From Symbiodinium sp. CCMP2592 (taxonomy: Eukaryota > Sar > Dinophyceae > Suessiales > Symbiodiniaceae), in NCBI GenBank assembly GCA_905221615.1, contig CAJNDT010002913.1, positions 300,167 through 364,166 of the forward strand: a DNA stretch of 64,000 nucleotides, given 5' to 3'. Below the pieces are notes generated by a model. The model had not been told where the DNA came from. It made no database searches and was given only the letters and a program-made list of their open reading frames with translations. Numbering within the stretch: the first letter of the stretch is position 1; every line of letters begins with the position of its first letter. Below are positions 1-59,003 of this stretch, piece by piece. The translations under genes and the position numbers were made by a program.

Positions 1-928
1 ATCACGGTTGGGGCAGTATGTAGCCGACCTCCACTCCCAACCCCATGCCAACGCTGGTTTGAGGGCCCTATGCTACTTCAAACTGCTGCGCAAACTCTAA
101 CTTCTACGAGTAGGGTTTTGGAATGTTGCAGACTATAAGCACATAGCAGTCCTTTCCACTCAGCAAAAACTACGAGCAATGAGGAACAGCCAACATCTGG
201 GACGTCCTGTGGAGCTGAGCGTGCGTACTATGAAGCATACGTCTTCGGGATGGTTTGGGATTTCGGATCTTGTTTAACACCTTTTTCCGTCCACTCAAGG
301 TCTGAGCAAGCGGAAGCCCGTGGAATAGGTGCTGACTGCCCACTAGTCCACTCACTTGTCGGGGTTTGCGGCTTTGCTTACTTGGGTTCGGAGACCCGAA
401 AACATAGCCCTCAACATCAATCAACACGTGGACTTGCGGCATAGACTTGAAGGTTCTCGTTGAAACCTCTATGTTGTGTTCTCAACACAAGAAAAAGCTT
501 CATGACACGCCTTGCAACACCACTAATGAAGTCTTCTAGAACCCGCATATTCCCCTGCATACAGAAACCTCCAAAATCCTGCAATCCTGGGGTTAAGCCA
601 AAGAGCTGCTGCTTCCGTTGCTCCAGCTGCTCGCAGCGGGTTCGCAGGTCCTAAAAGGTTTCTGCAGGTTTCTAGAATCTCTCCAACGAGTCTCGAGAAG
701 GGTTCTGTTTTCCGTGAGGGGCTTAAACACCGGCCACATTTATATGTCGGGAACTGCTTTACCTGTACGACCCTCGTCCCTCAACAGGGATCTGTCAAAG
801 CAAGTACCGAAACTGATCTGCATGCTCTTTTGTGAGGGGACGTCTAAGATGCGCAACCCTGTGCTTCACTTCTGGTTTGTCGCGATCGGGCAGTGTGCTC
901 CAGTTTGGCAAGAGGGGGGGGGGGGGGG
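1..928. other. Left flank of the copia element, no gene recognised
   Basis: Only short, unconvincing open frames are present on both strands, and none carries a motif I recognise. The stretch ends in a run of 16 G (914-929) that is the insertion target of the retrotransposon. The same type of G run (15 G) resumes at 15872 on the other side, so the site before insertion was probably one poly-G tract joining 1-913 to 15887 onward. Confidence 0.6.
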
Positions 929-1111
929 GAAACACTGAATGTTACACATCCAGGTGCCTGTCTGTTTCACGTATCACTTGCATGTATCCATGCCTGTTGC
1001 TCAAGGTTCTAGTGCAGTGGACTACAGCTGTGCGCCTGTAGCAAAAGAGACACCTGAGTGCCTGTGTTCCTGTACGCCTAGCGAGGGGATACACGTCCAG
1101 GTTACATCTCA
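929..1111 (+). repeat. 5' LTR of the copia element
   Basis: This 183-bp segment is identical to 15689-15871. It ends in CA, three bases before the primer binding site. The 3' copy begins with TG (15688-15689); here the T is replaced by the last G of the poly-G run, so the first LTR base was lost or mis-called at the homopolymer junction. The LTR is short for a copia element but within the range known for the superfamily. I could not identify promoter elements in it. Confidence 0.92.
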
Positions 1112-1313
1112 ACGTGGTAGCGGAGCTCCCGGGAAACGGGAAGCTTCACACTTGTGGAGGTACCCGTTCGGTACTCTCTACACAGGTGGAGGCAACCGGA
1201 ATACCCGGTGTGCTTCACTCAGGTGAAGGTGACCGGAGTCTCTCCGGCACACTTCACTCAGGTGAAGATAACCGGAAGAGGTTTCTCCCGGGGCTCGATC
1301 CAAGAACAGCGCA
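1112..1313 (+). promoter_or_regulatory. 5' leader with four tandem hairpins
   Basis: After the primer binding site the leader carries four degenerate repeats at 34-39 nt spacing. Each contains a six-base-pair hairpin with a four-base loop: 1144-1159, 1176-1191, 1213-1228 and 1252-1267. The last two share stem CTTCAC/GTGAAG with loop TCAG; the first two keep pairing through G.U or compensating changes. Each is followed by a conserved tail ending in ACC. The leader position would fit a packaging or dimerisation signal, but that is inference. ORF1 starts 46 nt after the last hairpin. Confidence 0.75.
1115..1126 (+). promoter_or_regulatory. Primer binding site, initiator-tRNA(Met) type
   Basis: TGGTAGCGGAGC lies three bases after the 5' LTR end. 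It would pair with a tRNA 3' end reading GCUCCGCUACCA, close to initiator methionine tRNA ends; Ty1 and plant copia elements use TGGTAGCGCC and TGGTATCAGAGC. It fixes the LTR/internal boundary and supports the copia assignment. Confidence 0.8.
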
Positions 1314-4300
1314 ATGGCTAGCCACTCTGCGACTATCTTTGAGCATGAAGGAGGAGATGATGACTACCTCCTCCACGGAAATGAATCTTTCGCGACTAAT
1401 CATCGTCATCTCAATGAATTACACCGTCTTTCAGCTTTCCAGCAGGTGACCACCAAAGTACCTCCATCTTATGATGGTAGAAGCAGTTGGTTTGCCTATG
1501 AAGATGCGATCGATGACTGGTGTGACATTACTGAGCTAGACAATGATAAGCGTGGACCAGCTTTGAGAAATCGGCTAGAAGGTGAAGCAGCAATCCACAA
1601 GAGGCTTCTCGACAGAGATCGCCTGAAGGACCCGAACAACGGAGTGAAGTACTTCAAGAGTTTCCTGCGGCCGCTTTTCGTGAAGGGAGCAGCGAATGTT
1701 TTTCTCTATCGCTTCCAGCAGTTCATGAACATGCACCGTGGGAACGGAGACATGCTTCGTTGGATTACCAGGTTTCAACTCTCTGTTCAGAGAATGCAAG
1801 AAGCGTGGAACGATACCTATCTGCCGATCGAGGACCCGAACAATGCAGAGGTCAGAGCTTTCATAGCAGGACTTCCACCAGAAGAACAAGAAGGAATCAC
1901 GCCAGTTCAGGCAATGGAAAGAGCCAACGAACGGCTCAGGGAGCAGCATGCTCGGACCATTCCGATCACGGCCAATCTCGTTGCTTTGATTTTTGTCTCT
2001 CTGTCCGACTTGACTCAGGATCAGCGGCAGGTGTTGACATCATTGATGGCGCATCGGAACCGAGTTTTAGCTGACTACAATACGACCGAACTGCGTGAGG
2101 TCTACCTTGAGATCTTCTGCACGACCAAGACTACCGTCGACAATCCTCTCCTCGCTCCTTCCGGCCACGGTGGCCGCAAGACGTTCCTTGTGATCGATGA
2201 AGGATATTTGAACGATCATGAAGGCTACTGGGTCGAGGACGAGGAAGATGGCACAGAAGGTTTTCTCGAAGTGGATGAGGACGCCTTCTGGGTCTACGAC
2301 GACGAGAATTATTCATGGTTCCAGCGGCGTTTCCAAGGCCGCAAGATGAGGCGCGGATTCAAGGGCCACCGTAAAGGCAAAGGAAAAGGTGGCAAAGGAT
2401 CCAAAGGAAGGCGCTTCTTCAAAAGGAAGAAAGGCAGGTCACATCTTGCCGAAGAATCAGAAGCATGGCAAGCAGAAGGACAATGGCAAGATTACCAGTG
2501 GAGCGATCAGTCCTGGGATGACTGGTCCTGGTACGAGTCTGAGGAATCCTATGCAGCCAAAGGAAAAGGAAAGAAAGGAAAGAAGGGCAAAGGAAAGAGC
2601 AAGTTTGGCAAGGATGGAAAAGATGGAAAGTCCGGAAAGGACGGACAGAGCCAGCTTGCTGATGCTGCCCCGAGCGGCACCACAGCCGCCACAACCTTCT
2701 TCGTTGAACATCTCAACACTCCGAACTTTTCTTTCATGGCCACCGAAGAGAAGATCAATGAGATCGAGGAAGCCTTCATCTCTCAGCCTTCGATGGTGTT
2801 GGACTTGGGATGCACGAGAGCAATGGCTTCGAGAGTGGCCGCACAGGACCTCATGGAGTTCTGTGACAAGAACCAGAACTGTGGCATATGGTACACCATT
2901 GCTGAGACCACTTCTCAGTTCACCTTTGCCAATTCCGAGTCTACCAAATGCAACCAGAAGTTGGTCATTTGCATGTACGACCGGGACTTTGCAGTTCAAT
3001 CCACAGAGTTCGACATTGTGGAACAAGGGCATGTTCCCATTCTCATGTCCTTACCTCAGATGCGCAATCTTCGTTTCCAGTTCGAGCTCCATCCGGAAAA
3101 GGCCTTGCTCAGCAGCCCTGTGCTGGGAATCAAGGATGTGAGGCTGAAGGTTGCACCCAGCTCACACCTGGTACTTGATCTTCTTGAACTCAGTCAGCTG
3201 ATGTGGAATGTGCGTTTCAGCAAGCATAAGAAGTCGAGCTTCCTCACCTACTTCTCCCACTACGAGTACGGCTTCCATCAGAAGACCGAGGGATGCTGTT
3301 CTCATGAACAGGTACCCGACAATCTCGTGTTGGCGACTGATGATGAATGGGTGATCAACGAAGCCGACATGGAAATGATTCGCATCCACAAGAAGATGAG
3401 AAGAGTCAAGTACGAACCCAAGGCGGGTTATGTGCCAATTCCGTTGGAGTATCTGGACACCAAGCGCAAGACGATCATGGAGTTCTCCAAGGGAAAGAGC
3501 GTTACTCAAGAAGATGACTGGCGTTCTTCTGAGCCTTCTTCAACAAGAACTACTGACTCTTGGAAGGGCAAGACATTTTTCAAGATTCTGCCTGGTGGCA
3601 TCGAGAGTAGAACCTCGGTGCCAGCTAAGTCCAAGGATCCAACCCGTGGAAAGGTAGGATCTCCAGAGGACATGGTTAGCGCAGGTAAGCCTGAAGACAG
3701 CTCGAAGAACACAGGAGCATCCGGAAGCTTTCCGCAGGGAAAGGCACCGGCAAAGCGAAGGATTCGAGCCAAGGGAAGCTTTCCACAGGGAAAGGCACCC
3801 GAGGAACCGGCTCCTCCTCCTCTTGCTCCTGAGGATGATCCGGATCTTCAAGAGTACGAACCTTCCGAACCGGGGGATGCAGATTTGCTTCCTCCGAGTC
3901 CTCCGAAGGCCCCAGAGCCACAGTCGCTAGAACCTAGGAGGATCGCGCTGCCGTTGCCAGGCCACGAGGTCTCAAGGGCTTCTCCGCAGTATCAGCGCAT
4001 GTTGGAAAAGCTGAACAATGATGTTGAGCTTTACAAGTTGCATGTGAAGCATTACCACATGAGTCCTGCTCAGTTTCGACGCAGGACCAGCATGCTTGGT
4101 CTGCCAGGAGAGATCTATGACAAGTACGACCGCATTGTCAAAGGCTGTCGTGTTTGCAGCACCTCGGTGCCTACGCCTCCGCGAGCCAGAATCGCAGGGT
4201 TAAGAGCATCATCCTTCGGTGATCTCATTTTTGTTGATCACGAAGAAATCAAGTTCGGTACTAAAGCCTACTTGGCTTTGGTCATCATTGATGGTGCTTC

Positions 4301-7300
4301 AAATCTTCTGTGGGCTACGGCTCTCACAAGCCTGGAAGCGCCAGAGACTCTGGGAGCTTTTAGACAATGGACAGAGGAGAACAACTGCGTTCCTAAGGGA
4401 ATCGTAGGAGATCAAGCATTTTTCACGCCGCAGTTCATGTCTTACTACAAGTTCCATGGCATTACTCCGTATCCATGTGGACCACGGACTCCTTGGCCTA
4501 ATCGAGCTGAGACCGCAGTGCGTCTTTTCAAGCGCACCTGGGCAATCATGGCCAAGGCCTTAGCTGATGAGGGTTATGCAGAGAAGGTGACTGTTCGTCA
4601 AGCAGTCAAGAAGGTGGCTTGGGCAAGAAATTGCCAGCTTACCGTCTCAGGCTATTCTCCTTTGGAGATAGCTACAGGAAGACGGCCACCAGACTTGTTT
4701 GATGTCGAGAACAGTTCTCCTGAACAGCTCTCTGCTGAACCTGCCGAGGAGGATCGAACCACTCTGGAACTCCAGAGGATTGCCATGCGGGCTCATCAAG
4801 AGGCCAGACAATCACTTGACCTTCGGAAGGACCTTGCACGAAGAGTCATGCCGTCTGATGGTCCTTATTCGAAGGGTGACCGCGTGTTTGTTTGGCATAA
4901 GGATGAGTCGAAGAAGAAGTCTGAAGGAACCTGGGTCAGAGGCATAGTTGTGTCACAGGAAGGTGCCATGGTGTTGGTTGAAGTTCATCGTGCCGTTCTT
5001 CGGGTTAATCAGTCGAAGGTCAGGCGTGATGGAGATCCGTGGCATGATGTGGCCATTCCTCTGAAGAAAGATGAGGTCCCGAGACGCTCTTCTCAGGAAG
5101 AGGCACTCGACCGCATCGGCGACGATATTCTTGATCGTGCCGGTTCTGGGTTCTGCTATGAGCATGAGATCTGTTACCACACTCTCACTTCAGGCAAGAG
5201 CGATTTCGTTGAGATCACACCTCGCCTCACCGGGCTTACTGCGTGCACAGTCCATTCTGGACTTGATGCGAGTGAACCTGTGTTGTTTGGTGAATGGAAC
5301 GCCAAGTCTATCCAATCTTCGATTGAGGCCGCTTGGCGAGTGATCTTGAAGGCAGAGCCTAATCACATTTTTATTCATCCTGTCATCCCTGATGGTTGGA
5401 CCAGGAAGGCCACCAATGCCTTCTGGCACTTTTGTGCCGAAGTCTGCCGTTGGCAAGATGACAAGGGTGATGGATACTTCGTGACCATCATGTATCCTTC
5501 TCATTGTGGGTTTTGGCTTTCGCAGAGTAGTCGCTCGCTGAAGTGGAGGAGAGGACTTTCATTCCACACCTTCAAGAACCGTGGTGTACTTCCTTCAGGG
5601 GGAGATGACCACGGTAAGCGTCAGCATGGTGAGCTTTCTTTTCTCACTAATCTGCCTGATGGATCATTTGGCCGTTTGGAGTCGTTGGAAGAAGGCTATG
5701 ACTCTGCTAACGCACTTGATCCAAGGTTTGCTGTGCTGCTTTCGCAGTGTCTTGTGGGTGATGAACGATCAGATCTCCGACAATCTTACTTGTTCGAAGA
5801 TATCTTTGAGGATTTCGATGATGGAACACTGTGTGCGTTGTGTTTGCGATCAGACCGCAATTCAGAGGCTTTACCGGTTCTTCCGTCAGAAGCAGAGTAC
5901 TCATTACTCTCAAACAATGACAAAGGGAAGCTTCCGACACCTCTGAGGTTTGTTGCGCCGCAGCGGTTTGTTACATCGTCTTTGGTCCAGACTCTGTCAT
6001 ATGTTGACAGTCTCCTTCCAGGTACTGAGTTGGAAGTTCACACGACCACATCGTCTGACGCGGTCGCCTTGCGGCCGATGATTAAGAATGTGCGCGTGCT
6101 AACTCTGCCGTATCTGGAGTTTGAGTACTGTAACGTCTACAGGGGGACTCAAGGGAAAACACTCCCTTTGGTTCATCGTCATCCTGATGCTGTTGTCATT
6201 TTGTGGCAGAAGGGTGATATGAATCATGTGTTTTTCGTGACGATGGCACAGTTGCTTCCTTGCCTTAAGGATATGCAATCAACGCACTGGTCCATGATAG
6301 TGTTCTGGAACGAGTCACAGAACAACAGTTCCAGACGCGGGCCTGATGTTGGCTTGGACTTCACGGACCAGCCAGCGCCAGCCCCGGTTGCACCGCAACC
6401 GCCAGCCACAGACGACGATGTGGACTATCCAGGATATGATGATCCACACGGTGATATGCCTGTGGACGATGAGGAAATGCCACTACAGCATCCAGAGCAG
6501 GATTTAGATGATAATCCTGTTGAGTTGCATGTCGGTGGTGACCCTCCGTCACAACCTCCTGGAGGCGGTACTCATGTACCGGTACCAGGGGGAGATGATG
6601 ATTCCGACCTGGATCACGATCCGGACGGTGATGGACATCCGCCAGGAGGCGGTCCTCAGGGACCGGGACCTGGTTATGGTCCGTCACCGGAAGAGCCTCC
6701 TCTTCCGATGGAGTTTCACGAGGAGTCGCCTCCTCCTGGAGGTCCTCCCGATTCTCCTGGGGCTCCGCCTCAGTTTGCGAACCCGGATCAGGTTCTTAGT
6801 CCACCGATGCCGTGGCCGGCACCACCTTCACCTATTGTTCCTGTTCCAATTCCGCCGCATCCTCACTTTCCGGTGCCACAGAGTATGCGACCGCCATCAC
6901 CTCGCAATGTGTCACAGACACGTGCGCGAGGCGCACATCCTGACGATGTGTCAAAGGCAAAGTCACGTACTGTCGTGGGACCCCCGGTTGTGCTGTTGCC
7001 TGGGCAATCTGCGGGAAAGAAGGATCCCGATCCGTCGGGTGACTTTCCAGGTTTTCACGAGCCTGCTTCCTCTTCTTCTGATCCGGCTCCTGTTCCTGGT
7101 TTGCCGGTGACTGAGGGGGAATTTCCTATCCAGCAAACCCCACTCCCGGAACCCACCCCGGAACCGCCGGTGCCGGAAGCTGGTGAGGATACTGATTCGG
7201 ATGCAACGGTTGACTATCGTGATGAGAGTTTGCTTGCTTTGGCTGTTGGAGACGACGACGTTTTGATTCGCCTTCCGTCGGACTTCAAGGTTCCGTCCTT

Positions 7301-9695
7301 TGTTCCGTTGGATGGTGATGGTTTTGCGTCGTGGTTGACTAAACAAGATAAAATCAAGGCAGGTACCCTCACGCCGGAGATGCAGCGCAAGTATGCCGCC
7401 GAAATTCGGAAGGCTAAACTTGAGGAGTTCAAGAGTTACTTGGACAATGATGCAATTCGGCTGACGGACCGTCGCAAGCTTAAAAACGATGTCAATTTTC
7501 TTACCGGACGTTGGGTCCTTACTGTGAAGGTCGACAAGAACGGTTACTTTTCCAAGTTCAAAGCCCGATGGGTTTGTCGTGGGTTTCAGGACAAGTTTGC
7601 CTGGGATCAACAAACGGACAGCCCTACGGCTACTCGGTATGGTTTCCGTTTGGTTGCGCAGTGCGCTGCCAATCACTATTGGGATCTTTTTCATTTGGAT
7701 CTTAAGACCGCTTTCCTTCAGGGGGAACACTACAATCTGTCATCTCGCATGGTTGTGGTTCAGTTGCCTCCTGACATCGGTTTGCCTACCTGGATGGTTG
7801 GCCTTTGTCTCAGACCAGTCTATGGTCTGAACGATGCACCGAGAAGATGGTGGAATCGTTTGGACAAATTCCTCAGGTCTGTAGGCATGGAACCGACCAG
7901 AGCTGACCGATGCACTTATGTCGCATACGACGGCATAGAAGGCAAGAAGGGCAAAAGCCACCTTGCGGCAGGAAGCTCCTCTCAGGAGGAGGAACCTGAA
8001 GCAGGTAGCACCTCTCTTGAGGTGGAACCTGCCTACCTCAAGGAGGTTGCCCTTCATGCCATGACATGCTACGCATACGATGAAGGAAACCGTTCTTCCT
8101 CCGACCGTGCGGAGGAGAGATCCTATCTTTCATGTCCCGATATCGCTCAGTGCTTTAACACCGATACCAAGAAGATGGTTGACTATGCTTGGAGGCCTGT
8201 GACTGATGATAAGCTTCTCGGATTCTTGGGCAGTGTTGCTTGTAAGAAAAGAGGTTGGTTCCCTTATGAGAACGGGCATGCTCTCGTTTCTCACAGGGCC
8301 AAGGCTCTTCGTACTCCTGCACCTGTCTATCAGGTCAAGGACTACCCTTATCGAGTTTCCATGATCCTCCGTAAAGGAACATGGTGGATTGTCGAAAGGG
8401 CCCATGACCTGAGGTTGGACAAGGGCGATAAGACCTGCTTCCTTGAAGAAGAAGCTGAGGTCCTAGTCTCCTTGTTCCTTCCAGAGAAGGCTTCATACAA
8501 GGTCGAGAGCTTATCAGAGCTCTCCCCCGAGTTGGTTGATCAGCTTCTTGAACACTTTGTTGACCCTGTGCATGGAAGTCCCAGCAAAGGTCGCAGGACA
8601 GTTGGAGTGATGAGTCTTCATGTTGATGATCTCATCATAAGTGGAACCCCTGAGTTCCTCACTTGGTTCCTCAAGAAAATCAAGGAACATTTCACTGTCG
8701 GCCATGAGGATAGAAATGACCTTACGTTCACGGGACAGCGTGTTCGTTGGGTTCTTGATGCACAAGGGAAGAAGAAATACATATCGATCGATCAAAAGCT
8801 GTGCGTTTCAGAGCTCGAGGAGATCGTCATACCTAAGCATCTTAAGGATGCAGATGCGTGTGACAAGGCTTTACACACCTCTTATCGCTCTTTGCTTGGT
8901 AGCATCAACTGGCTTCAGTCAAGGACGCAATTTCAGGCATGTTACCAGTTCTCTCGTTTGGCATCAGCATCTGCTGCTCGGACCGTTGGTCACTGCAAGG
9001 AGTTGAACAAGTTGTGTCGACAGATACGCAGTGAAGAGGTTGAGTTGCGGGTGTGGCCAGTGAAGGGATCTCCGAGGATTCTCGGAATTCCTGACGCAGC
9101 TTTCCGTAACAACAGCGATAAGTCCTCACAGAGGGCGGTGACTATCTTCATCGCAGATGAGAGGGTCAAGAATCGAAGAGACAGCAGAGGCTCATTGGTC
9201 TTCTTCGAATCAACCAAGATTAAGAGAACGACCCTCAGTACCACTGTCGCTGAACTGTACGCTTTGATGAAGTGTTTTGGTACCTGTCAAATGCTTCGTG
9301 GTTTGTGGAAGGATATTAGTGGTCTGGACGCCGAGATTCACATTCGCACCGATGCTAACAATCTCGTGTCTACCGCTTCTACTACTCACTCACCCGAACA
9401 ACAGGAAACCATTCACATGATTCAAATGCTGAGAAAGGAAGCGTGTTCAGGTGCTATTGCTGATCTTTCTCACGTTCGAACCGAACATTGTCTTTCTGAC
9501 TGTCTCACGAAACGAAGCGCTAATCCTAGAAACCTCCTGAGTTCTGTTCAAACTGGGTGGTTGAAGGAAATCGATTCACATCCTCCTTTTCGTTCCATGA
9601 TTGAGCACAAAGCCTTCTTGAACGCCTGGCTCCGTAAGGAGTACGCGGTTTTGAGTGCAGTGCAACATGTCATGTTCATGCAGGAGCGTTTGTGA
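1314..9695 (+). CDS. Copia Gag-Pol polyprotein (2793 aa): Gag, protease, integrase, RT, RNase H
   Basis: This supplies the capsid and all enzymes for reverse transcription and integration. The Gag-like region covers about residues 40-330. Lys/Gly/Ser-rich basic stretches (350-373 and 414-446) stand in for a zinc knuckle as nucleic-acid binders. A retropepsin-like VLDLGC motif has Asp497. The integrase has a His/Cys region (about 905-950, CRVC) and a core with Asp975, Asp1033 and Glu1066, giving DDx32E, slightly shorter than the usual x35. An acidic, Pro-rich linker spans about 1683-1956. RT covers about 2060-2460, with Asp2129 in HLDLKTAF, a VYGLNDAP motif and HVDD (Asp2438, Asp2439) in place of YVDD. 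RNase H follows with Asp2594, Glu2647 and Asp2680. Between VYGLNDAP and HVDD lie about 200 extra residues not found in classical copia RT. The frame has no interruption. Confidence 0.95.
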   Translation: MASHSATIFEHEGGDDDYLLHGNESFATNHRHLNELHRLSAFQQVTTKVPPSYDGRSSWFAYEDAIDDWCDITELDNDKRGPALRNRLEGEAAIHKRLLDRDRLKDPNNGVKYFKSFLRPLFVKGAANVFLYRFQQFMNMHRGNGDMLRWITRFQLSVQRMQEAWNDTYLPIEDPNNAEVRAFIAGLPPEEQEGITPVQAMERANERLREQHARTIPITANLVALIFVSLSDLTQDQRQVLTSLMAHRNRVLADYNTTELREVYLEIFCTTKTTVDNPLLAPSGHGGRKTFLVIDEGYLNDHEGYWVEDEEDGTEGFLEVDEDAFWVYDDENYSWFQRRFQGRKMRRGFKGHRKGKGKGGKGSKGRRFFKRKKGRSHLAEESEAWQAEGQWQDYQWSDQSWDDWSWYESEESYAAKGKGKKGKKGKGKSKFGKDGKDGKSGKDGQSQLADAAPSGTTAATTFFVEHLNTPNFSFMATEEKINEIEEAFISQPSMVLDLGCTRAMASRVAAQDLMEFCDKNQNCGIWYTIAETTSQFTFANSESTKCNQKLVICMYDRDFAVQSTEFDIVEQGHVPILMSLPQMRNLRFQFELHPEKALLSSPVLGIKDVRLKVAPSSHLVLDLLELSQLMWNVRFSKHKKSSFLTYFSHYEYGFHQKTEGCCSHEQVPDNLVLATDDEWVINEADMEMIRIHKKMRRVKYEPKAGYVPIPLEYLDTKRKTIMEFSKGKSVTQEDDWRSSEPSSTRTTDSWKGKTFFKILPGGIESRTSVPAKSKDPTRGKVGSPEDMVSAGKPEDSSKNTGASGSFPQGKAPAKRRIRAKGSFPQGKAPEEPAPPPLAPEDDPDLQEYEPSEPGDADLLPPSPPKAPEPQSLEPRRIALPLPGHEVSRASPQYQRMLEKLNNDVELYKLHVKHYHMSPAQFRRRTSMLGLPGEIYDKYDRIVKGCRVCSTSVPTPPRARIAGLRASSFGDLIFVDHEEIKFGTKAYLALVIIDGASNLLWATALTSLEAPETLGAFRQWTEENNCVPKGIVGDQAFFTPQFMSYYKFHGITPYPCGPRTPWPNRAETAVRLFKRTWAIMAKALADEGYAEKVTVRQAVKKVAWARNCQLTVSGYSPLEIATGRRPPDLFDVENSSPEQLSAEPAEEDRTTLELQRIAMRAHQEARQSLDLRKDLARRVMPSDGPYSKGDRVFVWHKDESKKKSEGTWVRGIVVSQEGAMVLVEVHRAVLRVNQSKVRRDGDPWHDVAIPLKKDEVPRRSSQEEALDRIGDDILDRAGSGFCYEHEICYHTLTSGKSDFVEITPRLTGLTACTVHSGLDASEPVLFGEWNAKSIQSSIEAAWRVILKAEPNHIFIHPVIPDGWTRKATNAFWHFCAEVCRWQDDKGDGYFVTIMYPSHCGFWLSQSSRSLKWRRGLSFHTFKNRGVLPSGGDDHGKRQHGELSFLTNLPDGSFGRLESLEEGYDSANALDPRFAVLLSQCLVGDERSDLRQSYLFEDIFEDFDDGTLCALCLRSDRNSEALPVLPSEAEYSLLSNNDKGKLPTPLRFVAPQRFVTSSLVQTLSYVDSLLPGTELEVHTTTSSDAVALRPMIKNVRVLTLPYLEFEYCNVYRGTQGKTLPLVHRHPDAVVILWQKGDMNHVFFVTMAQLLPCLKDMQSTHWSMIVFWNESQNNSSRRGPDVGLDFTDQPAPAPVAPQPPATDDDVDYPGYDDPHGDMPVDDEEMPLQHPEQDLDDNPVELHVGGDPPSQPPGGGTHVPVPGGDDDSDLDHDPDGDGHPPGGGPQGPGPGYGPSPEEPPLPMEFHEESPPPGGPPDSPGAPPQFANPDQVLSPPMPWPAPPSPIVPVPIPPHPHFPVPQSMRPPSPRNVSQTRARGAHPDDVSKAKSRTVVGPPVVLLPGQSAGKKDPDPSGDFPGFHEPASSSSDPAPVPGLPVTEGEFPIQQTPLPEPTPEPPVPEAGEDTDSDATVDYRDESLLALAVGDDDVLIRLPSDFKVPSFVPLDGDGFASWLTKQDKIKAGTLTPEMQRKYAAEIRKAKLEEFKSYLDNDAIRLTDRRKLKNDVNFLTGRWVLTVKVDKNGYFSKFKARWVCRGFQDKFAWDQQTDSPTATRYGFRLVAQCAANHYWDLFHLDLKTAFLQGEHYNLSSRMVVVQLPPDIGLPTWMVGLCLRPVYGLNDAPRRWWNRLDKFLRSVGMEPTRADRCTYVAYDGIEGKKGKSHLAAGSSSQEEEPEAGSTSLEVEPAYLKEVALHAMTCYAYDEGNRSSSDRAEERSYLSCPDIAQCFNTDTKKMVDYAWRPVTDDKLLGFLGSVACKKRGWFPYENGHALVSHRAKALRTPAPVYQVKDYPYRVSMILRKGTWWIVERAHDLRLDKGDKTCFLEEEAEVLVSLFLPEKASYKVESLSELSPELVDQLLEHFVDPVHGSPSKGRRTVGVMSLHVDDLIISGTPEFLTWFLKKIKEHFTVGHEDRNDLTFTGQRVRWVLDAQGKKKYISIDQKLCVSELEEIVIPKHLKDADACDKALHTSYRSLLGSINWLQSRTQFQACYQFSRLASASAARTVGHCKELNKLCRQIRSEEVELRVWPVKGSPRILGIPDAAFRNNSDKSSQRAVTIFIADERVKNRRDSRGSLVFFESTKIKRTTLSTTVAELYALMKCFGTCQMLRGLWKDISGLDAEIHIRTDANNLVSTASTTHSPEQQETIHMIQMLRKEACSGAIADLSHVRTEHCLSDCLTKRSANPRNLLSSVQTGWLKEIDSHPPFRSMIEHKAFLNAWLRKEYAVLSAVQHVMFMQERL

Positions 9696-9857
9696 GTCAT
9701 GTCTGCTTCATGTGTGAGCTGTCGGAGCAATTCAATGCATGTGCTTCATGAAGAGTTGTTGGTCTCTTTTTAAATTTGTGCCTGCATTGCTCAAATCAGC
9801 TGGTTCAAAACTCAAGTGAGAAAGTAGCCCACAACTTCCTCTTCTTCTGTTACCAGC
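9696..9857 (+). promoter_or_regulatory. Inter-ORF region with a splice-acceptor-like end before ORF2
   Basis: The 162-nt gap ends in a pyrimidine tract and AG (9835-9856, cttcctcttcttctgttaccag), one base before the ORF2 ATG at 9858. That is the form of a 3' splice acceptor. In dinoflagellates mRNAs receive a spliced leader in trans at such sites, so this may create a separate ORF2 mRNA; a cis-spliced subgenomic RNA is the alternative. At 9768-9784 the 17-mer ttttaaatttgtgcctg is identical to 15669-15685, directly before the 3' LTR. Confidence 0.6.
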
Positions 9858-12698
9858 ATGGCTGCGGCAGGACCCTCGATGGACACTGGACGCTCCTCTC
9901 ATGAGGAGGCACCATTTCAGGCTATCTGGACACCGAAGACTGGATGCAACTTCAAGGTTGACATCCGCACTGGTGTTCCTGACCTGTCCTTGTACCAGAA
10001 AAGTGCGTCCTGGGCAGACCGTCGTGTACTCCGAACAGTTGGAGATGGCGACGGTATTGCCGGCTATCCTACAAGGGATCGTCGAGCCTATCCTCGAAGT
10101 GCTCCTTTGGCTTCCCTCAGGATCATCCCAGAAGGTGTTCCGCGGTTCTTCCGCCAGCAGGACACCACGGCGTACTTCCCTCATGGGGAGATGGCCGCGG
10201 TGAACATTCTGGAAGGACAGTTGGCCTTCCTGTCGCATGTCCTGCGCTACGAGGAAAGCAACCCTGGAACCCATGTGCTGCCGCGGCACCTCACCTGGAA
10301 GTTTGACTTCTTGAGGTGCTTCCTTGGATGTCTGACCAACGACGAGCTCATCGAGCTCGATCGAGAAATCTTCGACATCCATCAGATGCGACACAATCAC
10401 AATGGATGGGCGGTGAAGTCATCCAAGCAGTTGTCGCAGCTGACTCGGCATGACACGAGAGTCACGCCTGGCAGATACATGGAGATTCCTCTGGAGACGA
10501 TGATGAAGCACCACTTGAGGCCTTTCGATTGGGCGCCCAAGAAGTTCTTCGCTTTCTTGATGGCGAACTCGAAGGGCCGCTTCAACATCTGGGTGGCCCC
10601 AGTGGCTCTGCAGTTCGAGCGTTTCTTTGACTTCGACTTCTACGTCGGGGTCTCCGCCGTCCAGGGCCACTCGCGGATGCCCGAGCAGGTTGCTGATGTC
10701 GCCTACGGGGAGAGGCTCACTATCGACCGATGCCGCCAGCTGGGAACGATTTTCCACGCCTCGGATAACTCCAACTACGAGAGCATCCGGGAAAACGGCT
10801 TAAGGCTGGAGGCGACGAAGGCGGCGTGGCAGCGGCACAGGAAGGCCATCCATCTCGTGTATGCGGGTGGAGTGGTTTCTCCTGGGTCTGGGACCGTCAT
10901 TAAGTACGGCTCCTACGTCTTCTACGCCAAGCTCGATTACGAGAGCTATCTGAACCACGGCCACGATCTGTTTCTTACAGACAACGGCGTGGTGCTCTCG
11001 TACAAGGACATTCCGGCGATGTATCTCACACATCATTACCGTCCTCCTCACGAGCAAGATCCGGGTGGCATTCGCCATGAGAGGAAGCAGCAAAGCGCAG
11101 GGGTAGGCTCTTCTCAGGAAGAGGGAACCTCAGCGTCTGCTTCCGCATCTGCTACCGGAGGCTCTCCACATGGAGGGGTACCGGGTAGCAGTTCGGATCC
11201 AACGCCTTCGAAGCCAGCTCCCAAGAAGAGGCCAAAGACATCTCAGGATGAAGGCCAAGCGTCGACGGGAAGCTTCTCTCAGGAGAAGGTACCCACTTTA
11301 GACGCGGCGGCTCTCCAGAAGCTTATTCGCGAAAATGAGCTGAAGGCAGAGCGGGAGCGGCAAGCCACATCCTCCCAAGGGGACACCAAGTATGCATACC
11401 AGTCTGGGGACACCGTCCACGGCAAGGTTGATGCGCACAAGTCCCAGCAGCAGGAGGAGCTCAACGAGGTCCGCAAGGCAAGGACCAATCCATGGCATCT
11501 CTTTGCCCACGGCAAGTTGCACATGGTGGACTCTTCTGGCCAGCCGATGCTTAGCACCTACGGCGATGCCCTCGTACAGGTCACCCCCTGGCATACCTTG
11601 ACTATTTCGATGAGGGAGTCTTTGGGTGGTGAATACGACTGGGCATCCTGGTTGCAGCATCCTCTCTCGGGGTACTCCCTGCACTTCTTCCTCAAGGCTT
11701 TCGAGATGGGGAAGTTGCAGGGGAACTACCTCGTGGAGCTGGACAAGAAACCGAAGGTTTACTCCAACGGTTACTCGTCACCTTGGATGAACATGCGTCG
11801 TCATCCGGGAGGTCTTGCCAAGATGCTGGAGGATGTCACCCTCGCCTCGCAGAACGAATTCCGGCCCAACGTGGGTAACATCGGATTCGATCGCCCTCGA
11901 GACTCTGATCCTCGTGCAAAGATGCCAAAGACGGAGGATCCTGATTACTCTCGCAAGCTCGCCGGACACAGTGCTTTCCTCAGGGAAAGGTATGTGTACG
12001 AAGAGGTCTTCAATGTGCGAGAGGACTTTCAGATGCTCGTTCGCGTCATCAATGAGGCATACGGAGTGGACTTCTTCTCCTACATCCAGCGCCACGCCAG
12101 TGATCTGGAGGTTCGCCGTAAATACACGGCGCGAACCCCTGAGGGCTACAATCTCTATGACAGTACCCTCAAGCAGCCGTTCAGCGGCAGCTACATCCTG
12201 GCCGTTCTGGAGAAAGTCTTCGCAGAATCTGAGCACCGAGATTTCAAATCGGCTTTCGCACGCAAGGCAAAAGCGGACTTGGTGGCTTACGAGGACTTGA
12301 AGGCGAAGAAGGAGTCCGAGCTGAATGAGCTCCTCACTCGACCATATGAAGACATTATGATCGAGGAGTTCATCGACCGACTCCTATGTCCACAGATCGA
12401 GGAGATCGAGGAGCCTCCCGCGGCTACTCAGATGGATACCTCCGAACCGTCGTCTGGATCCACGGACTTGCCACAGGGCAAGAAGGTTGATCCGGTTAAG
12501 ACCGAGCCGACCGATGTGCCAATGGAGACTGAAGCTCCAGAAAGCTCTCCACAGGGAGAGGCATCTGGGCTACTGTCGAGCCAATGGAGACGGACGCTCC
12601 GGAAAGCTCTCCACATGGGGAGGCATCTGGGGTGGATGTTCCACAACAGAAGACCGAAGCCACGGAAAGCTCTCCACAGGGAGAGGCATCCGAGGTGA
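9858..12698 (+). CDS. Copia accessory ORF2 (946 aa) with a Tpt1/KptA-like domain
   Basis: Residues about 190-392 resemble RNA 2'-phosphotransferase Tpt1/KptA, which uses NAD to remove a 2'-phosphate left at RNA splice junctions. Visible landmarks in family order are TRHDT (about 197, matching the LRH motif), KGRFNIWV, SAVQGHS (266-272, matching IRAxQGHS), FHASD (His300, matching HGT), ENGL, KAIHL and NGVVLSYKDIPAMYL (from about 376). The Arg of IRAxQGHS is a Ser here, so classical activity may be altered. The remainder is low-complexity, Glu/Lys-rich or unrecognised. The ATG at 9858 follows a pyrimidine tract and AG. The last 115 nt overlap ORF3, where an ESSPQGEASG peptide repeat continues in ORF3's frame, so ORF2 and ORF3 were probably one frame. 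Confidence 0.75.
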   Translation: MAAAGPSMDTGRSSHEEAPFQAIWTPKTGCNFKVDIRTGVPDLSLYQKSASWADRRVLRTVGDGDGIAGYPTRDRRAYPRSAPLASLRIIPEGVPRFFRQQDTTAYFPHGEMAAVNILEGQLAFLSHVLRYEESNPGTHVLPRHLTWKFDFLRCFLGCLTNDELIELDREIFDIHQMRHNHNGWAVKSSKQLSQLTRHDTRVTPGRYMEIPLETMMKHHLRPFDWAPKKFFAFLMANSKGRFNIWVAPVALQFERFFDFDFYVGVSAVQGHSRMPEQVADVAYGERLTIDRCRQLGTIFHASDNSNYESIRENGLRLEATKAAWQRHRKAIHLVYAGGVVSPGSGTVIKYGSYVFYAKLDYESYLNHGHDLFLTDNGVVLSYKDIPAMYLTHHYRPPHEQDPGGIRHERKQQSAGVGSSQEEGTSASASASATGGSPHGGVPGSSSDPTPSKPAPKKRPKTSQDEGQASTGSFSQEKVPTLDAAALQKLIRENELKAERERQATSSQGDTKYAYQSGDTVHGKVDAHKSQQQEELNEVRKARTNPWHLFAHGKLHMVDSSGQPMLSTYGDALVQVTPWHTLTISMRESLGGEYDWASWLQHPLSGYSLHFFLKAFEMGKLQGNYLVELDKKPKVYSNGYSSPWMNMRRHPGGLAKMLEDVTLASQNEFRPNVGNIGFDRPRDSDPRAKMPKTEDPDYSRKLAGHSAFLRERYVYEEVFNVREDFQMLVRVINEAYGVDFFSYIQRHASDLEVRRKYTARTPEGYNLYDSTLKQPFSGSYILAVLEKVFAESEHRDFKSAFARKAKADLVAYEDLKAKKESELNELLTRPYEDIMIEEFIDRLLCPQIEEIEEPPAATQMDTSEPSSGSTDLPQGKKVDPVKTEPTDVPMETEAPESSPQGEASGLLSSQWRRTLRKALHMGRHLGWMFHNRRPKPRKALHRERHPR

Positions 12699-14524
12699 AG
12701 GTCGAACCTGATGTGCACATGGGTCAGGAAGGAGGTAAGTCCGAGAACATCGAAATGGCTGAGGAAGGCTCACCACAGGGTGAGGAATCCATGCCAGACA
12801 TTTCTCCCGAGAAGGATGATGAAAGTGAACTTCACGATCAAGGCATCTGGGGGAAATGCAAGACTGTTCCGGATCCTGAGTACTACCAGGCCGCGAAGGA
12901 TGCAGAGGACCAGAATGAGAACGCGTTCGACAAGATGGGCAAGGCAAAGGAAAAGATCGAGCTCGTTGATCTCGAAGAGTTCAAACATTTCCTTACGCAG
13001 CTCACCGAAATCGAACGACAAATTCAAAGCCCTATGCGGCTGCTCTGCAAGCAGGTGCGTGGATATGGCTATTCAGGCTTGTATCATACAGGACTTCGTG
13101 ATCCTGACTACGAGCCCGTACTCGCCTACAAGGTGCAGCATATGAGTTGGAGGGTAAATGTTCCGAACCACAAGGGACAGAAATACTCTCTCTCTATGGT
13201 TGACCTATTCGACCAACTCAACAAGATGGATCCCATCTATGAACGTCGTCCCGACAAGAAGGACGTTGTCTTTCGTTCTGGGGACGTTCGCAGCACCTTG
13301 GACGATAAGCTCATGGGTAAGGCCTCTGACATCCGAGAATCAGCATTGGAGGTTATGGAAGCACTTCTTGATAAGCTGAAGTCCTTGGATGAAAGCGGCA
13401 ATCCGGCAACTCGAGAAGAACTTTTGAATGCTATGCTTCACTACTTCTTGAGCACCGGAGTCGATGAAGAGGAGATCGGGGACCTCTCTCTTGAGAAGAT
13501 GCCGAATCCTTATATTCATCGTTTTGGTCTGGCAGAGGACTCCAATGTCCCTATCTTCACCAGCAAGACCAAGTACGCCGCGCTCATCCTCAATCTCGGC
13601 AACATGAGCAGGGGAAGAAAGCGTTCCGCTCCTAGCTCCGTTGCTAATCACATTGACTGGGACGATGCTACACCATCTAAAGGAGCCTTGATAAAATCGA
13701 TTGCACAGTCGAAGACGCATTTGTTTATGCTCTGCGAAGCGGCTAAAATCGATGACTCCGAAGAGGCCTTCCTCAAGTCACGCGGTTGGCAATTCCTTCG
13801 TAACGAGTCCAAGGACCTGATGGTGGGAAGTCGTACAAATGGTGTCGGATCTTCGATCACCCGTCTTGCCGGCTCCACTCTCAGTGGATATGCCCACGAG
13901 TCCCTTCCAATAACCTATATGGTCGCGGAAATCGTGTATGGCATGACGTTACCGACCGGTCTCCAGGGCAGTCGTGGTGATGTTCCAGATGAGTCACTGA
14001 CCAAGGTCTTGGAGCGGGCTGGATCCGACCGGCTCAGAGTTTGTGTCTTCCACCTCCACAACGACGCGGCGGCAGACAAGGTGGCGTTGGCTCATGAAGT
14101 GTTGGGCAACATGTTCATTGACTGCTTGCACTACCAAGTCGACCTCATCGGTGGCGACGCCAACATGGCCCTCTACCGGGCCACCGGTAGAAAGCAAGAG
14201 TCGATGGATATTCGTGGCGGGATGTACCAAAGCCTTCTCGACTACTTCTTGGAGGCATGGTCAGAAAGCCCAAAGTGCCCACACTTCTGTTCGCCTCGTG
14301 CGAGACATGTGTCAGCAAACGCCATGTGGCTTCTGAAGCAGTATGAGGACACGCTGGGAATGCCATACAAGGAAGCTAAGCAACCAGACTGGAATACTTT
14401 TCCTGGTTTGGATCCTGTTATGGCTACAGTCATGGAATGGGGACACAGCATGTCGGACGATCAATGGGCGGAGTTTCCGTCTTCAAAGACGAGTTCGACA
14501 TCCATGTCTCTGAGTGGCTGTTAA
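12584..14524 (+). CDS. Copia accessory ORF3 (646 aa): N-terminal part of an EEP-type nuclease-like domain
   Basis: The C-terminal half (about 330-646) carries motifs in the order of the endonuclease/exonuclease/phosphatase superfamily used by LINE endonucleases and DNase I: ILNLGNMSRG (Asn), LFMLCEAAK (Glu), VFHLHND (His/Asp) and GGDANMALYR, the GDxN motif. The last catalytic motif of the fold, SDHxP-like, is absent here but appears in ORF4 as DYDAHTPLLIEV, so a frameshift near 14476-14495 splits the domain. The start is not a normal start: the frame continues ORF2 across a shift near 12570-12590 within duplicated sequence. I do not recognise the N-terminal half. Confidence 0.6.
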   Translation: METDAPESSPHGEASGVDVPQQKTEATESSPQGEASEVKVEPDVHMGQEGGKSENIEMAEEGSPQGEESMPDISPEKDDESELHDQGIWGKCKTVPDPEYYQAAKDAEDQNENAFDKMGKAKEKIELVDLEEFKHFLTQLTEIERQIQSPMRLLCKQVRGYGYSGLYHTGLRDPDYEPVLAYKVQHMSWRVNVPNHKGQKYSLSMVDLFDQLNKMDPIYERRPDKKDVVFRSGDVRSTLDDKLMGKASDIRESALEVMEALLDKLKSLDESGNPATREELLNAMLHYFLSTGVDEEEIGDLSLEKMPNPYIHRFGLAEDSNVPIFTSKTKYAALILNLGNMSRGRKRSAPSSVANHIDWDDATPSKGALIKSIAQSKTHLFMLCEAAKIDDSEEAFLKSRGWQFLRNESKDLMVGSRTNGVGSSITRLAGSTLSGYAHESLPITYMVAEIVYGMTLPTGLQGSRGDVPDESLTKVLERAGSDRLRVCVFHLHNDAAADKVALAHEVLGNMFIDCLHYQVDLIGGDANMALYRATGRKQESMDIRGGMYQSLLDYFLEAWSESPKCPHFCSPRARHVSANAMWLLKQYEDTLGMPYKEAKQPDWNTFPGLDPVMATVMEWGHSMSDDQWAEFPSSKTSSTSMSLSGC

Positions 14525-14949
14525 ATTCCACCAGCGCCGCGTACCTTCTCAACGATCGGGACTATGACGCCCACACTCCGCTCCTCATCGAGGTTCACGC
14601 GAACCAGTACTCTGGAGGAAGGATGAGGGCGCTCAACCGCAATCCCGACACCGTGAAGGAAGCCGCGGACAGAAAAAAAGAGAGACAGAAGCTGAACAAG
14701 GCGCGTGGTTCTGGTTCTACTGGTCCTGCAGCCGCACCACAGGGAGCAAGCTCTTCTCAGGAAGAGGCAGCTTCTGGTGCTAAAGCTTCTGGTTCTCAAC
14801 GTCCTCAAGAACCCGCACAACCTCCTGGTGGCAAAGAAGGCGGCAAAGGAGGCAAGTCCTCCAAAGGAAAAGGCAAGGACGCCGACAAGGGCAAGTCCAA
14901 AGGCAAGTCCAAGGACAAGTCCAAGGGCAAGAGCAAGGGGAAACACTGA
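14437..14949 (+). CDS. Copia accessory ORF4: end of the EEP-like domain plus Lys/Gly/Ser-rich tail
   Basis: The useful part begins at about 14488 with DEFDIHVSEWLLN and DYDAHTPLLIEV, which fits the C-terminal His motif of EEP nucleases and completes the domain begun in ORF3. It then becomes a Lys/Gly/Ser-rich basic tail that would bind nucleic acid. The nominal ATG at 14437 lies inside the ORF3 overlap and is probably not used; the shift between the frames may be an indel in this copy, an assembly error or programmed frameshifting. The stop is TGA followed by CTAG, a context known for readthrough, and the same frame stays open to 15195. Confidence 0.6.
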   Translation: MGTQHVGRSMGGVSVFKDEFDIHVSEWLLNSTSAAYLLNDRDYDAHTPLLIEVHANQYSGGRMRALNRNPDTVKEAADRKKERQKLNKARGSGSTGPAAAPQGASSSQEEAASGAKASGSQRPQEPAQPPGGKEGGKGGKSSKGKGKDADKGKSKGKSKDKSKGKSKGKH

Positions 14950-15195
14950 CTAGGTTCCGATTCTTCGGATGTGGAAATGGACAATGGACTCGACGAGGTT
15001 CCTTTTGAACAAGATGATGCCGTTGCTCCTGATCCACAGATTTCGTTACCTAGATCCCCTGCTGATCCCCACGGTTACGACCCTGTTCGCCATGCTCCGG
15101 TGATGCCGATCCACACGGTCGACATTTATCGCTGGCATGGTACTGAACATTGGCGTGATAGAACCTGGGATCGCGACATAGAGTTCATCGACTGA
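14950..15195 (+). CDS. Possible readthrough extension of ORF4 (about 81 aa)
   Basis: Immediately after the ORF4 TGA (14947-14949) the same frame is open through 15192 and ends at a second TGA. The encoded segment is acidic and Pro-rich, then contains a Trp/Arg/Asp-rich end (HGTEHWRDRTWDRDIEFID). The sequence across the stop reads TGA CTA G, the strongest known eukaryotic readthrough context. A separate small ORF starting at the internal ATG 14971 is the alternative. Confidence 0.4.
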   Translation, partial: LGSDSSDVEMDNGLDEVPFEQDDAVAPDPQISLPRSPADPHGYDPVRHAPVMPIHTVDIYRWHGTEHWRDRTWDRDIEFID

Positions 15196-15687
15196 ACTGG
15201 CAGAGTGTTTCACGGAATGCTTCTTTCAGAAGAAGGTATCCACTTGAGCATTCGTCATTTCATAAGGAGATGCTTTTCTCAGGAAAAGGTACTTCCTAAA
15301 GAACTCTTTCTCAAAGAAAGATACTTATCTCAGGATAAGATACTTCTCATGCCCTTATATATTTGCCGTGTCGCAAGATGTCATGCTGGCATCAAGTGGA
15401 GCTAAGCTCTACAATCTTTTATGTGACAGTAAGCTTTCCGCCTGGAGAGGAAACTGAACACAAGTGGGCAACTTTCAAGCAAAAGTTTTCAGTTGAAGAT
15501 CCGTTTGCGTTTTCGTGCGTGTTCTGCTCTTTTCATTGAAGCTGTCTTCAGGTGAGAGATGTATAGATTCTCTTCAAGTCGCAGATGTAGCTCAATACTC
15601 CGCTAATTCGACCGAGAGCAATAACAGGCTAGTTGAATGCCGACTCCACGGCCATGCAGCTCTACGTGTTTTAAATTTGTGCCTGGT
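15196..15687 (+). other. 3' untranslated region of the copia element
   Basis: It begins after the possible readthrough extension. Four hairpins of the dispersed family form a tandem run at 15220-15339. A 17-mer at 15669-15685 repeats the one before ORF2 and lies where the polypurine tract is expected, just 5' of the 3' LTR, although it is not purine-rich. I see no convincing coding sequence and no clear polypurine tract. Confidence 0.65.
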
Positions 15688-15871
15688 TGAAACACTGAAT
15701 GTTACACATCCAGGTGCCTGTCTGTTTCACGTATCACTTGCATGTATCCATGCCTGTTGCTCAAGGTTCTAGTGCAGTGGACTACAGCTGTGCGCCTGTA
15801 GCAAAAGAGACACCTGAGTGCCTGTGTTCCTGTACGCCTAGCGAGGGGATACACGTCCAGGTTACATCTCA
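15688..15871 (+). repeat. 3' LTR of the copia element
   Basis: The sequence begins TG and ends CA, and 15689-15871 is identical to 929-1111 base for base. It is followed by 15 G (15872-15886), matching the G run on the left flank. Confidence 0.93.
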
Positions 15872-55163: not shown

Positions 55164-55205
55164 GTCCTGAAAGGCAGGGGGTTCAAGGGGGCTGCACAGA
55201 GAGAG
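55164..55205 (-). promoter_or_regulatory. Splice-acceptor-like tract before the gypsy accessory ORF
   Basis: On the minus strand two pyrimidine-rich tracts ending in AG precede ATG 55163; the nearer ends ccctgcctttcag, three bases before the ATG. This matches the arrangement before copia ORF2. It could be a spliced-leader trans-splicing site or the end of a cis intron. Confidence 0.5.
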
Positions 55206-58200: not shown

Positions 58201-59003
58201 CGCCGCACAGCGGCCGCCAAGTCGGAAAACTGCTTGAACTGGGAACGGGCCCAGTCCGTGATGGGCTCGAATTGGAGGGCCTCGCGGAGAACGTCCTTCT
58301 CCAACGGCAGGGCGAGGCTCCAGGACCGTTCCAGGTCCCTGGGGGTGTACCCATGCGCCCCCGGGGTATTATCCAACACATACTCGGCGACCATGAGCCA
58401 TTCGCTCCAGTTCTCCATGGAGCCGCCGATATGCCGGATGAGGTTACCCAGAACCTTCTGGACCTCTTGGTGGACCCTCTCGTTTGACCCCATCTCACAA
58501 GGCCTGAGAGCCATACTGAACTGCTGAGTTGTCCCAAGCATGGAGCACAACTCCAGCATCATGGCATTCTTGAACTCAGTGCCTCGATCAGATCGGATGA
58601 GGCGGGGCAGGGTGCGTGATCTCAGCACGAACCGCAGAAATGCCCTACGCACATCCGTATGCGTAAGTGTCTTCATGGGTTCCAGAAGCACTGCGTGGCT
58701 AAGGCAATCAAAGTACGTAATACTGTATCGGAAGCCATCGCGGTCCTCCCGATTAGGACCCTCGCAGTCGACGGAAACTTCCTGCCAACACGCTTCCGCG
58801 AGACATTTGACAGGTTTCCCTTCGACCTTCGTGGCTCGGGCCCTGCCCTTAACACACGCCAGGCATTTGGACACCCACAACTTAACGTCTGGTTCCATTC
58901 CTGGCCACCAGACGGCCCTTTCAAGGAGACGGAACGTGACCTCCGCCGAACGGTGCGCCCCAGGAGGCCACAATGCACAGTCATGTAGCATGACTTCCGC
59001 CAC
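55164..59003 (-). CDS. Gypsy pol part 3: integrase followed by RT fingers/palm (YVDD)
   Basis: The N-terminus carries the His/Cys zinc region (HDCALW, GAHRS, WWPGM, CLAC; about 59000-58840). The frame upstream of the listed GTG start reads RPERYRRAQWRH, typical of this position. The integrase core has VDCEG, SDRGTEF and SNERV, with exactly 35 residues between the last Asp and Glu. A post-integrase domain and a long unassigned spacer follow. At about 56100-55700 come gypsy RT motifs: LVVDYRRVN, FVDAVSGFNQI, FGPVNGPDDFN and YVDD (55724-55713). The thumb expected after YVDD is missing here and is encoded upstream, before the integrase. From about 55500 the frame enters CCCTAA-containing sequence that looks non-coding but has no stop before 55163. 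Confidence 0.75.

Follow-up and report, generated by a model that had tools for sequence, protein, structure and literature searches.

A repeated, covarying RNA hairpin module in copia retrotransposons of Symbiodinium

Numerous short stem-loops that share a loop motif lie dispersed along the RNAs of bacteriophage MS2, satellite tobacco necrosis virus, parechovirus and hepatitis B virus, and the portions available of PMC6281560, PMC4751978, PMC5431903 and PMC7612645 describe the stem-loops of such small viruses as dispersed packaging signals read by one particle protein. Here we describe comparable modules in a copia retrotransposon of the dinoflagellate Symbiodinium sp. CCMP2592. The DNA analysed, hereafter the window, comprises 64,000 nucleotides of contig CAJNDT010002913.1 (positions 300,167 to 364,166, forward strand), and the element, flanked by long terminal repeats (LTRs), spans 929..15871 of it (~15 kb). 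As in the viral systems, we found many stem-loops with a shared loop motif beyond chance expectation and conservation at the RNA level, seen in inner stem and loop and in compensatory changes. The modules differ from the viral signals in belonging to an LTR retrotransposon, in forming one recognisable module of fixed loop length, in having a loop class that differs between lineages and, in the family of this element (family 1), in a 3x3 internal loop of identical-purine mismatches. By analogy, they may work like the proposed viral signals; we do not assign them to that class, and binding by a particle protein is putative.

Three other kinds of sequence invite comparison. The packaging signals of retroviruses and of Ty1 and Ty3 are structured RNA between LTR and gag, where this element has four modules, but those described are centred on the leader and do not form a 30-copy array across the open reading frames (ORFs). 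Rickettsia palindromic elements and other mobile palindromes are inserted in frame in protein genes as a tolerated peptide, and in-frame insertion into ORFs is also seen here; the modules, by contrast, occur in the sense orientation only (27 against 0) and have conserved synonymous sites, and we rejected an identity with Rickettsia-type palindromes on orientation and stem conservation. Byp and the double-hairpin elements of organelle genomes are likewise short hairpins interrupting coding sequence, whereas the modules lie in a nuclear retroelement and are read through in frame. Little is known of how an LTR element picks out its own RNA, and dispersed packaging signals easily escape notice, single sites being weak. 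In the present case the putative sites stand out as a single covarying module that recurs along the RNA, and they are found both in relatives whose loops differ and in two families that share a genome. A search of the open-licence literature found no description of such modules, and the words 'hairpin' and 'palindrom' were absent from the available parts of two papers that mention copia elements of Symbiodinium (PMC5890265, PMC11453091).

The module and its conservation

A first-pass annotation of this sequence had reported 25 copies of a 16-nt hairpin between 1144 and 15339. The hairpins are present at those places, but number and size had to be revised: we count 30 modules on the sense strand of the element, extending from 1136 to 15457 and including one at 15426-15457 that had been missed. 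Each is ~32 nt long and consists of a tetraloop, mostly NCAG or NCAT, a 6-bp inner stem, a 3x3 internal loop and an outer stem; three have other loops (1144, ACTT; 8009, TCTT; 15434, GCCT). At least ten stem sequences had been reported; there are 19 distinct 5' arms among the 30 modules. Four modules lie in the leader and four in the 3' untranslated region (UTR), where a degenerate further copy can be made out by eye near 15302.

Counted in a strict form (6-bp stem closed by C..G, loop NCA[GT], at most two G.U pairs), hairpins number 27 on the + strand of the element and 0 on the - strand, compared to a mean of 0.31 and a maximum of 2 in 100 dinucleotide shuffles of the element; the other 48 kb of the window hold 2 and 0 on their two strands. 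The open frames contain 21 strict hairpins, and the codon-shuffle null, which the annotation had named as a test, falls far short of this number (mean 1.29, maximum 6 in 200 synonymous-codon shuffles). A structure-only scan, which allowed loops of 3-6 and set no constraint on stem or loop sequence, returned 25 hairpins on the sense strand, all of them with tetraloops, and 0 on the antisense strand; the remaining 48 kb gave 0 on one strand and 1 on the other.

Alignment of 29 copies revealed a second layer of structure around the inner stem. The first mismatch outward of it is G.G in 22 copies and A.A in 6 (28/29 homo-mismatches) and the third is A.A in 22 and G.G in 5 (27/29), with T.T, C.C, A.C and others at the second. 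The outer stem, which played no part in finding the copies, is paired in 28, 29, 28, 22 and 18 of the 29 copies, pair by pair outward (86% of cells), with two-sided changes in all five pairs, and covariation over the whole structure was 0.784, compared to 0.208 after shuffling and 0.14-0.21 when the structure was slid. A covariance model, built as the annotation had proposed, was trained on these 29 copies and so recovers them by construction; at a threshold of E<1e-5 it added the module at 15426-15457 (E=8e-6), which lay outside the training set, and its best match beyond the element had E=0.099. None of the strict, covariance-model and structure-only scans found modules above chance in the rest of the window, and the Rfam covariance models gave 0 matches at E<=1 over 900-15900. 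When folded in context, 24 of the 30 modules had an inner-stem probability >0.5; the difference from other hairpins is modest, since the same threshold was passed by 9/16 non-module hairpins of the element and by 17/23 hairpins of a second copia family described below. A pattern search of the genome (a 1.1-Gb assembly of 5383 contigs) gave 415 matches compared to 47 for the control. Among 100 matches listed of the 415, 84 were element-type strings and 16 were others (control rate ~11), one of these 16 with a full stem; the pattern fits only a few modules, and this weak test gave no sign of module spread outside the family.

Sibling copies of the element, on eight contigs with 91-99% identity over matches of at least 1 kb, were compared site by site. 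They had been found by a pattern search fitting modules 5589 and 11108, both of which were excluded from the site-variation test, and one of ten stretches of the second-region alignment did not align and was dropped. Third codon positions of the inner stem and mismatch purines were variable at 5/118 sites, compared to 901/4265 in the rest of the frames (P-value = 4e-7) and 136/630 in frame sequence within 60 nt of a module (P-value = 1e-6). Over all positions the inner stem varied at 14/336 sites as against 1497/13616 (P-value = 2e-5), and in the leader modules at 0/48. Loop bases 2-3 were variable at 1/56 sites, while loop base 4 varied at 10/28 and the middle mismatch at 16/56; such a mixture of fixed and free positions inside one module is what a recognised RNA shape would give. 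At 11273, a T-A pair is replaced by C-G in 10/50 siblings, with a single change in one other copy breaking the pair, and compensatory changes are also seen in outer pairs of modules 12545 and 12670. Copy number also changes among siblings, a 63-nt unit being absent from 2/9 of those aligned. In one sibling a 46-nt deletion covers module 6566; it was set aside as evidence on mobility because flanking sequence is lost with it.

Taken together, RNA-level selection on the modules is well supported, and the annotation's suggestion of selection on RNA structure is borne out by synonymous-site conservation, compensatory changes and outer-stem covariation. The modules act in the sense RNA and not as DNA or peptide.

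Loops in relatives and in a second copia family

Relatives of the element were compared as proteins (148 polyproteins, 120 of them listed, and 22 relatives of ORF2), a search for their DNA that included viral contigs having found none. In the main codon phase, pairing of the arms obliges the residues on either side of the loop codon to match (S with E, P with G, F with K). Windows of such matched residues exceeded amino-acid shuffles in 29 of the 33 proteins scanned, namely 3 from the window, 8 chosen polyproteins and all 22 ORF2 relatives; P0136, P0140, P0141 and P0142 had none. A wider scan of 50 of the 120 polyprotein relatives found no clear excess in most of those beyond P0007, P0083 being the exception. 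ORF2 alignments show modules in relatives at 7/9 compared sites (all but 10029 and 11974); stem residues change there in matching pairs (P/G, S/E, F/K together), and loops change over several sites. Modules have also been gained or lost in frame: a 10-residue gap stands at 5589 in P0001-P0003 and P0005, an extra module-like peptide lies just upstream of 5079 in P0001, P0002 and P0005, and site 8009 is empty in P0003, P0006 and P0007. In P0125 a module is repeated together with its flank.

The loop residues are Q or H in most kin of the window element, whose DNA reads NCAK, F or S in one clade of the ORF2 tree (support 100/100), P or L elsewhere, and T (NACN) in P0083. The loop nucleotides are probably NTYN in the F/S clade and NCYN in the P/L class. 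Within proteins, 95/132 pairs of loops were of the same class, compared to 43.1 after shuffling, a count that is not a probability owing to shared descent and that rests on 17 of the 33 proteins, hand-picked to cut near-copies, with Leu counted as Pro. With exceptions, the loops of a single element tend to share their residues, and those of separate lineages tend not to; the coincidence of the F/S class with one clade may reflect descent only.

In the same genome a second copia family (stretches L097 and L098, on one contig, and L099, with L033-L036, of which L035 overlaps L099) was searched for the family-1 module, and none was found. It has hairpins of its own, with 5-6 bp stems and a tetraloop N[ACT]C[ACT], on the sense strand; this loop class was defined after seeing L097, in a search that set no constraint on the loop. 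One frame, truncated at 2647 codons where the stretch ends, contains 36 six-bp tetraloop hairpins compared to 9.5 expected, while other loop lengths gave 10-16 with 7-9 expected. N[ACT]C[ACT] loops on six-bp stems number 23 in that frame, as against 2 antisense and 2.4 expected; with 5-bp stems the counts are 49 sense and 8 antisense (~7-8 expected). Among 96 two-base loop classes on 5-bp stems, the largest sense-antisense gap was 34 (36 vs 2, NNCA), compared to 11 (11 vs 0) in a control frame of 3523 codons, which indicates that base skew alone can give some asymmetry. NNCA is also the top class at the separate loci L033, L034 and L036 (gap 14 each) and L099 (52 vs 4); at L098 it is NACN (20 vs 0). 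L034 and L036 represent a further copia subfamily (reverse transcriptase (RT) 54% identical to P0083), with sense N[ACT]C[ACT] loops in excess in their open frames (14 vs 2 and 18 vs 3). We take the A-N-C-A loops of the second family to resemble the ANYA loop bound by MS2 coat protein. Between two of its copies that are 94.4% identical, stems differ at 4/486 sites and the remainder at 351/6239 (P-value = 8e-8), a result drawn mainly from sequence past the first frame, in which codon position is uncontrolled.

Two controls bear on how far this feature extends. When the open frames elsewhere in the window are joined, they contain 1.3-1.9 times the shuffled number of hairpins, so that synonymous shuffles underestimate hairpins generally; their strands are nearly equal (60 sense, 65 antisense) because overlapping frames on both strands even them out. 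In the 3523-codon control frame, on the minus strand and part of a different retroelement, tetraloops are no commoner than other loop lengths, and N[ACT]C[ACT] loops number 5 sense and 17 antisense. The lack of a tetraloop excess there argues that the feature is a property of the copia lineages covered here and not of all coding DNA of the genome. The internal loop, the outer stem, the lineage-specific loops and the second family all go beyond what the first-pass annotation had seen.

Possible functions of the modules

We propose, as a reading that stands about an even chance of being right, that the modules are multivalent binding sites through which an element-encoded protein selects or packages genomic RNA, acting in the sense RNA. 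Each module would be one putative site, read through its tetraloop and mismatch loop. Many weak sites would together provide avidity, by which full-length RNA of the element itself would be picked and condensed into particles over RNA of the host or of rival copia elements. The four leader sites would then sit in the region in which the packaging signals of retroviruses and LTR elements lie. New sites would arise when a module is duplicated or inserted in frame within linkers, and loop changes would spread over the sites since sites and reader must match. As to the reader, binding by Gag, integrase or the Tpt1-like protein, suggested by the annotation, is possible. Gag carries basic K/G-rich tails, and a search of the 120 polyprotein relatives listed, among which near-copies are numerous, found no zinc knuckle CX2CX4HX4C; the RNA-binding motif usual in copia thus seems to be missing, and the element may have to choose RNA by other means. 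The different loops in two copia families of one host argue against a single shared host factor.

A broader and more tentative proposal, which we consider possible but would not yet favour, is that in this dinoflagellate-like group the copia elements mark their RNA with a code for self-recognition. Each lineage would have at least 30 tetraloop hairpins whose loop is matched by an element-encoded, lineage-specific reader, loop switches would be concerted, and families would keep their RNAs apart; of the loops concerned, NCAK and N[ACT]C[ACT] are seen in DNA and the others are deduced from residues. The lineages offer natural swap partners for tests of specificity, and their modules make up a large alignment of a new RNA motif, one with identical-purine mismatches. 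The module array might also explain why the linkers of these polyproteins are long.

Several observations weigh against packaging by a matched reader, in which the packaging role is deduced and the binding putative. Among siblings the outer stem varies at background level (third positions 9/44, P-value = 1; overall 32/280, P-value = 0.77), the mismatch purines are weakly conserved over all codon positions (6/112, P-value = 0.07), and single inner-stem changes keep pairing in 8 cases and break it in 6, no better than chance. In the second family, third positions within the first frame are borderline (1/68 vs 78/975, P-value = 0.054), and single stem changes keep pairing twice and break it twice. 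Folding predicts that the four modules of the leader pair among themselves, which leaves their inner stems a probability of 0.00, and the first 2 kb of ORF1, encoding Gag, lack a module. Loop classes of the relatives are read from residues, with Ser and Leu codons ambiguous and nucleotide classes deduced; they are mixed in P0002, P0121, P0122, P0124, P0131, P0132 and P0139, and the Q and P/L classes are not clades in the ORF2 tree. Nor does loop class go with Gag: the Gag core is 89% identical to that of the window element in P0003, with F/S/L loops, and 86% in P0002, with mostly Q.

The same selected RNA modules could instead serve another step, such as export, stability, translation or escape from silencing, through a host or an element factor. 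Modules that are alike in leader, ORFs and 3' UTR and a conserved RNA structure would fit such a role, and there is precedent for an RNA structure that protects a copia RNA, the Evade ENE motif (described in the part of PMC12501189 available). We regard this as a possible though rather unlikely explanation, because the different loops in two families of one host fit lineage-specific readers better and ~30 sites per RNA seem to exceed what a stability or export element would need. RNA dimerisation, in which self-complementary modules would unfold and join two RNAs, with the leader array as dimer linkage, draws on the predicted mutual pairing of the leader modules, which is stable (z=-6.3). The NCAK and N[ACT]C[ACT] loops are, however, not self-complementary and would offer no kissing start, and fixed loop bases and dispersal over 15 kb are left unexplained, which makes dimerisation improbable.

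The annotation had also considered a self-spreading hairpin tolerated as a linker, and the in-frame gains and losses agree with that much of the idea. Such a neutral hairpin would be spread, and its arms repaired, by template switching of RT, and would encode a harmless linker peptide; the repeat of module and flank in P0125, the copy-number change of the 63-nt unit and the avoidance of the RT core and the Gag part are all in keeping with it. Neutrality does not explain third codon positions of the inner stem that are frozen relative to adjacent stretches, nor loop bases 2-3 that are fixed while base 4 varies, nor the absence of strict antisense copies, and repair of a palindrome would not yield identical-purine mismatches (A.A, G.G). 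This explanation is already disfavoured, and we judge it unlikely. Selection on the peptide, as a linker or protease site with the hairpin a by-product of codons, would account for the single codon phase that the annotation had noticed, shared by 18 of the 21 strict coding copies and giving small polar peptides such as SSQEE and SPQGE. The phase preference is real, but 220/258 chance hairpins of the synonymous null have it too, so that it follows from the encoded peptides. Eight modules are untranslated, in leader and 3' UTR, which contradicts a peptide role; three of the strict coding copies lie outside the main phase, hairpins are largely lost on synonymous shuffling (mean 1.3 vs 21), and synonymous sites are conserved. 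We consider selection on the peptide hardly credible.

The element and the positions of its modules

The two LTRs, at 929..1111 and 15689..15871 on the + strand, are 183 bp each and 100% identical, indicating a recent insertion and a young copy. A G run borders the element on both sides (905-930, 15872-15886), and because the element lies within this run a target duplication is indistinguishable from it. A reverse transcriptase of the RVT_2 family (PF07727, E=8e-16) and the flanking LTRs place the element in the Ty1/copia superfamily. At least 150 RT matches are present in the genome (the best 150 of 2811 candidates scored), and the closest named relatives of the polyprotein, 76-77% identical, are from Symbiodinium natans. 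ORF1 (1314..9695, + strand) encodes a polyprotein of 2793 aa in the order Gag, protease, integrase, RT and RNase H. Its domains other than RVT_2 were assigned by eye, including an integrase-like stretch upstream of RT, for which the Pfam scan gave no integrase match.

ORF2 (9858..12698, + strand) has 946 aa in the window copy and is followed by frames at 12584-14524 and 14437-14949. The region after ORF1 (9858-14949) is thus divided into three overlapping frames in the window copy; more than 40 of the 135 rows compared have a single open frame of ~1,650-1,730 codons there. A pyrimidine-rich stretch and CAG directly 5' of the ORF2 ATG (9834-9858) form a candidate spliced-leader acceptor, and the ORF2 mRNA may be trans-spliced. 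ORF2 includes a Tpt1/KptA-like domain (10416-11001) whose match to PTS_2-RNA (E=1.5e-5) narrowly misses the Pfam cut-off, which relatives P0121 and P0123 pass. By eye, its QGHS motif is kept and the arginine usually preceding it is apparently missing, both of which we take to be Tpt1-domain motifs; catalysis is doubtful because of this arginine. A comparison of ORF2 with solved structures gave a chance-level match only. For the third frame no relative of solved structure was found and the structure model was poor (mean predicted local distance difference test score, pLDDT, 38.6); a putative nuclease-like fold is a guess by eye.

All modules lie on the + strand, and except where another source is named below the alignment and the covariance model support them. 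The four leader modules stand in tandem between LTR and first ATG (1136-1167, 1168-1199, 1205-1236, 1244-1275). ORF1 has modules at 3288..3319, 3720..3751, 3771..3802, 5079..5110 (covariance model), 5581..5612 (site 5589, in another codon phase), 6558..6589 (site 6566), 6642..6673, 7968..7999, right after the RT core, and 8001..8032 (site 8009). Those of ORF2 begin with 9885..9916 and 10167..10198, both also supported by relatives, and between them 10021..10052 (site 10029), which is in another codon phase and not evident in relatives. The modules at 11100..11131 (site 11108) and 11154..11185 are supported by the covariance model, siblings and relatives, and 11265..11296 (site 11273) by its compensatory change within the own genome. 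The module at 11966..11997 (site 11974) is in the third codon phase and again not evident in relatives, and in that at 12459..12490 the mismatches are flipped, with A.A inside and G.G outside. A three-unit array with a period of ~63 nt comprises 12537..12568 (site 12545), 12599..12630, the unit that two of the nine aligned siblings lack, and 12662..12693 (site 12670); the third unit and the next module, 12761..12792, are supported by the covariance model and siblings. The last coding module, 14743..14774, lies near the end of the last frame. Those of the 3' UTR are at 15212..15243 and 15316..15347 (covariance model for both), at 15265..15296, which is weak in context (inner-stem probability 0.37), and, before the 3' LTR, at 15426..15457 (site 15434). 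A weak covariance-model match in the third frame (13475-13506, E=0.003) is maybe a decayed copy.

The retroelement that provided the control frame, a second and different one that also carries Tpt1, occupies 48588-59156 of the window, where the minus-strand frame of 3523 residues encodes an integrase (H2C2, rve), RVT_1, Tpt1/KptA (E=3.7e-9) and a PLD-like domain.

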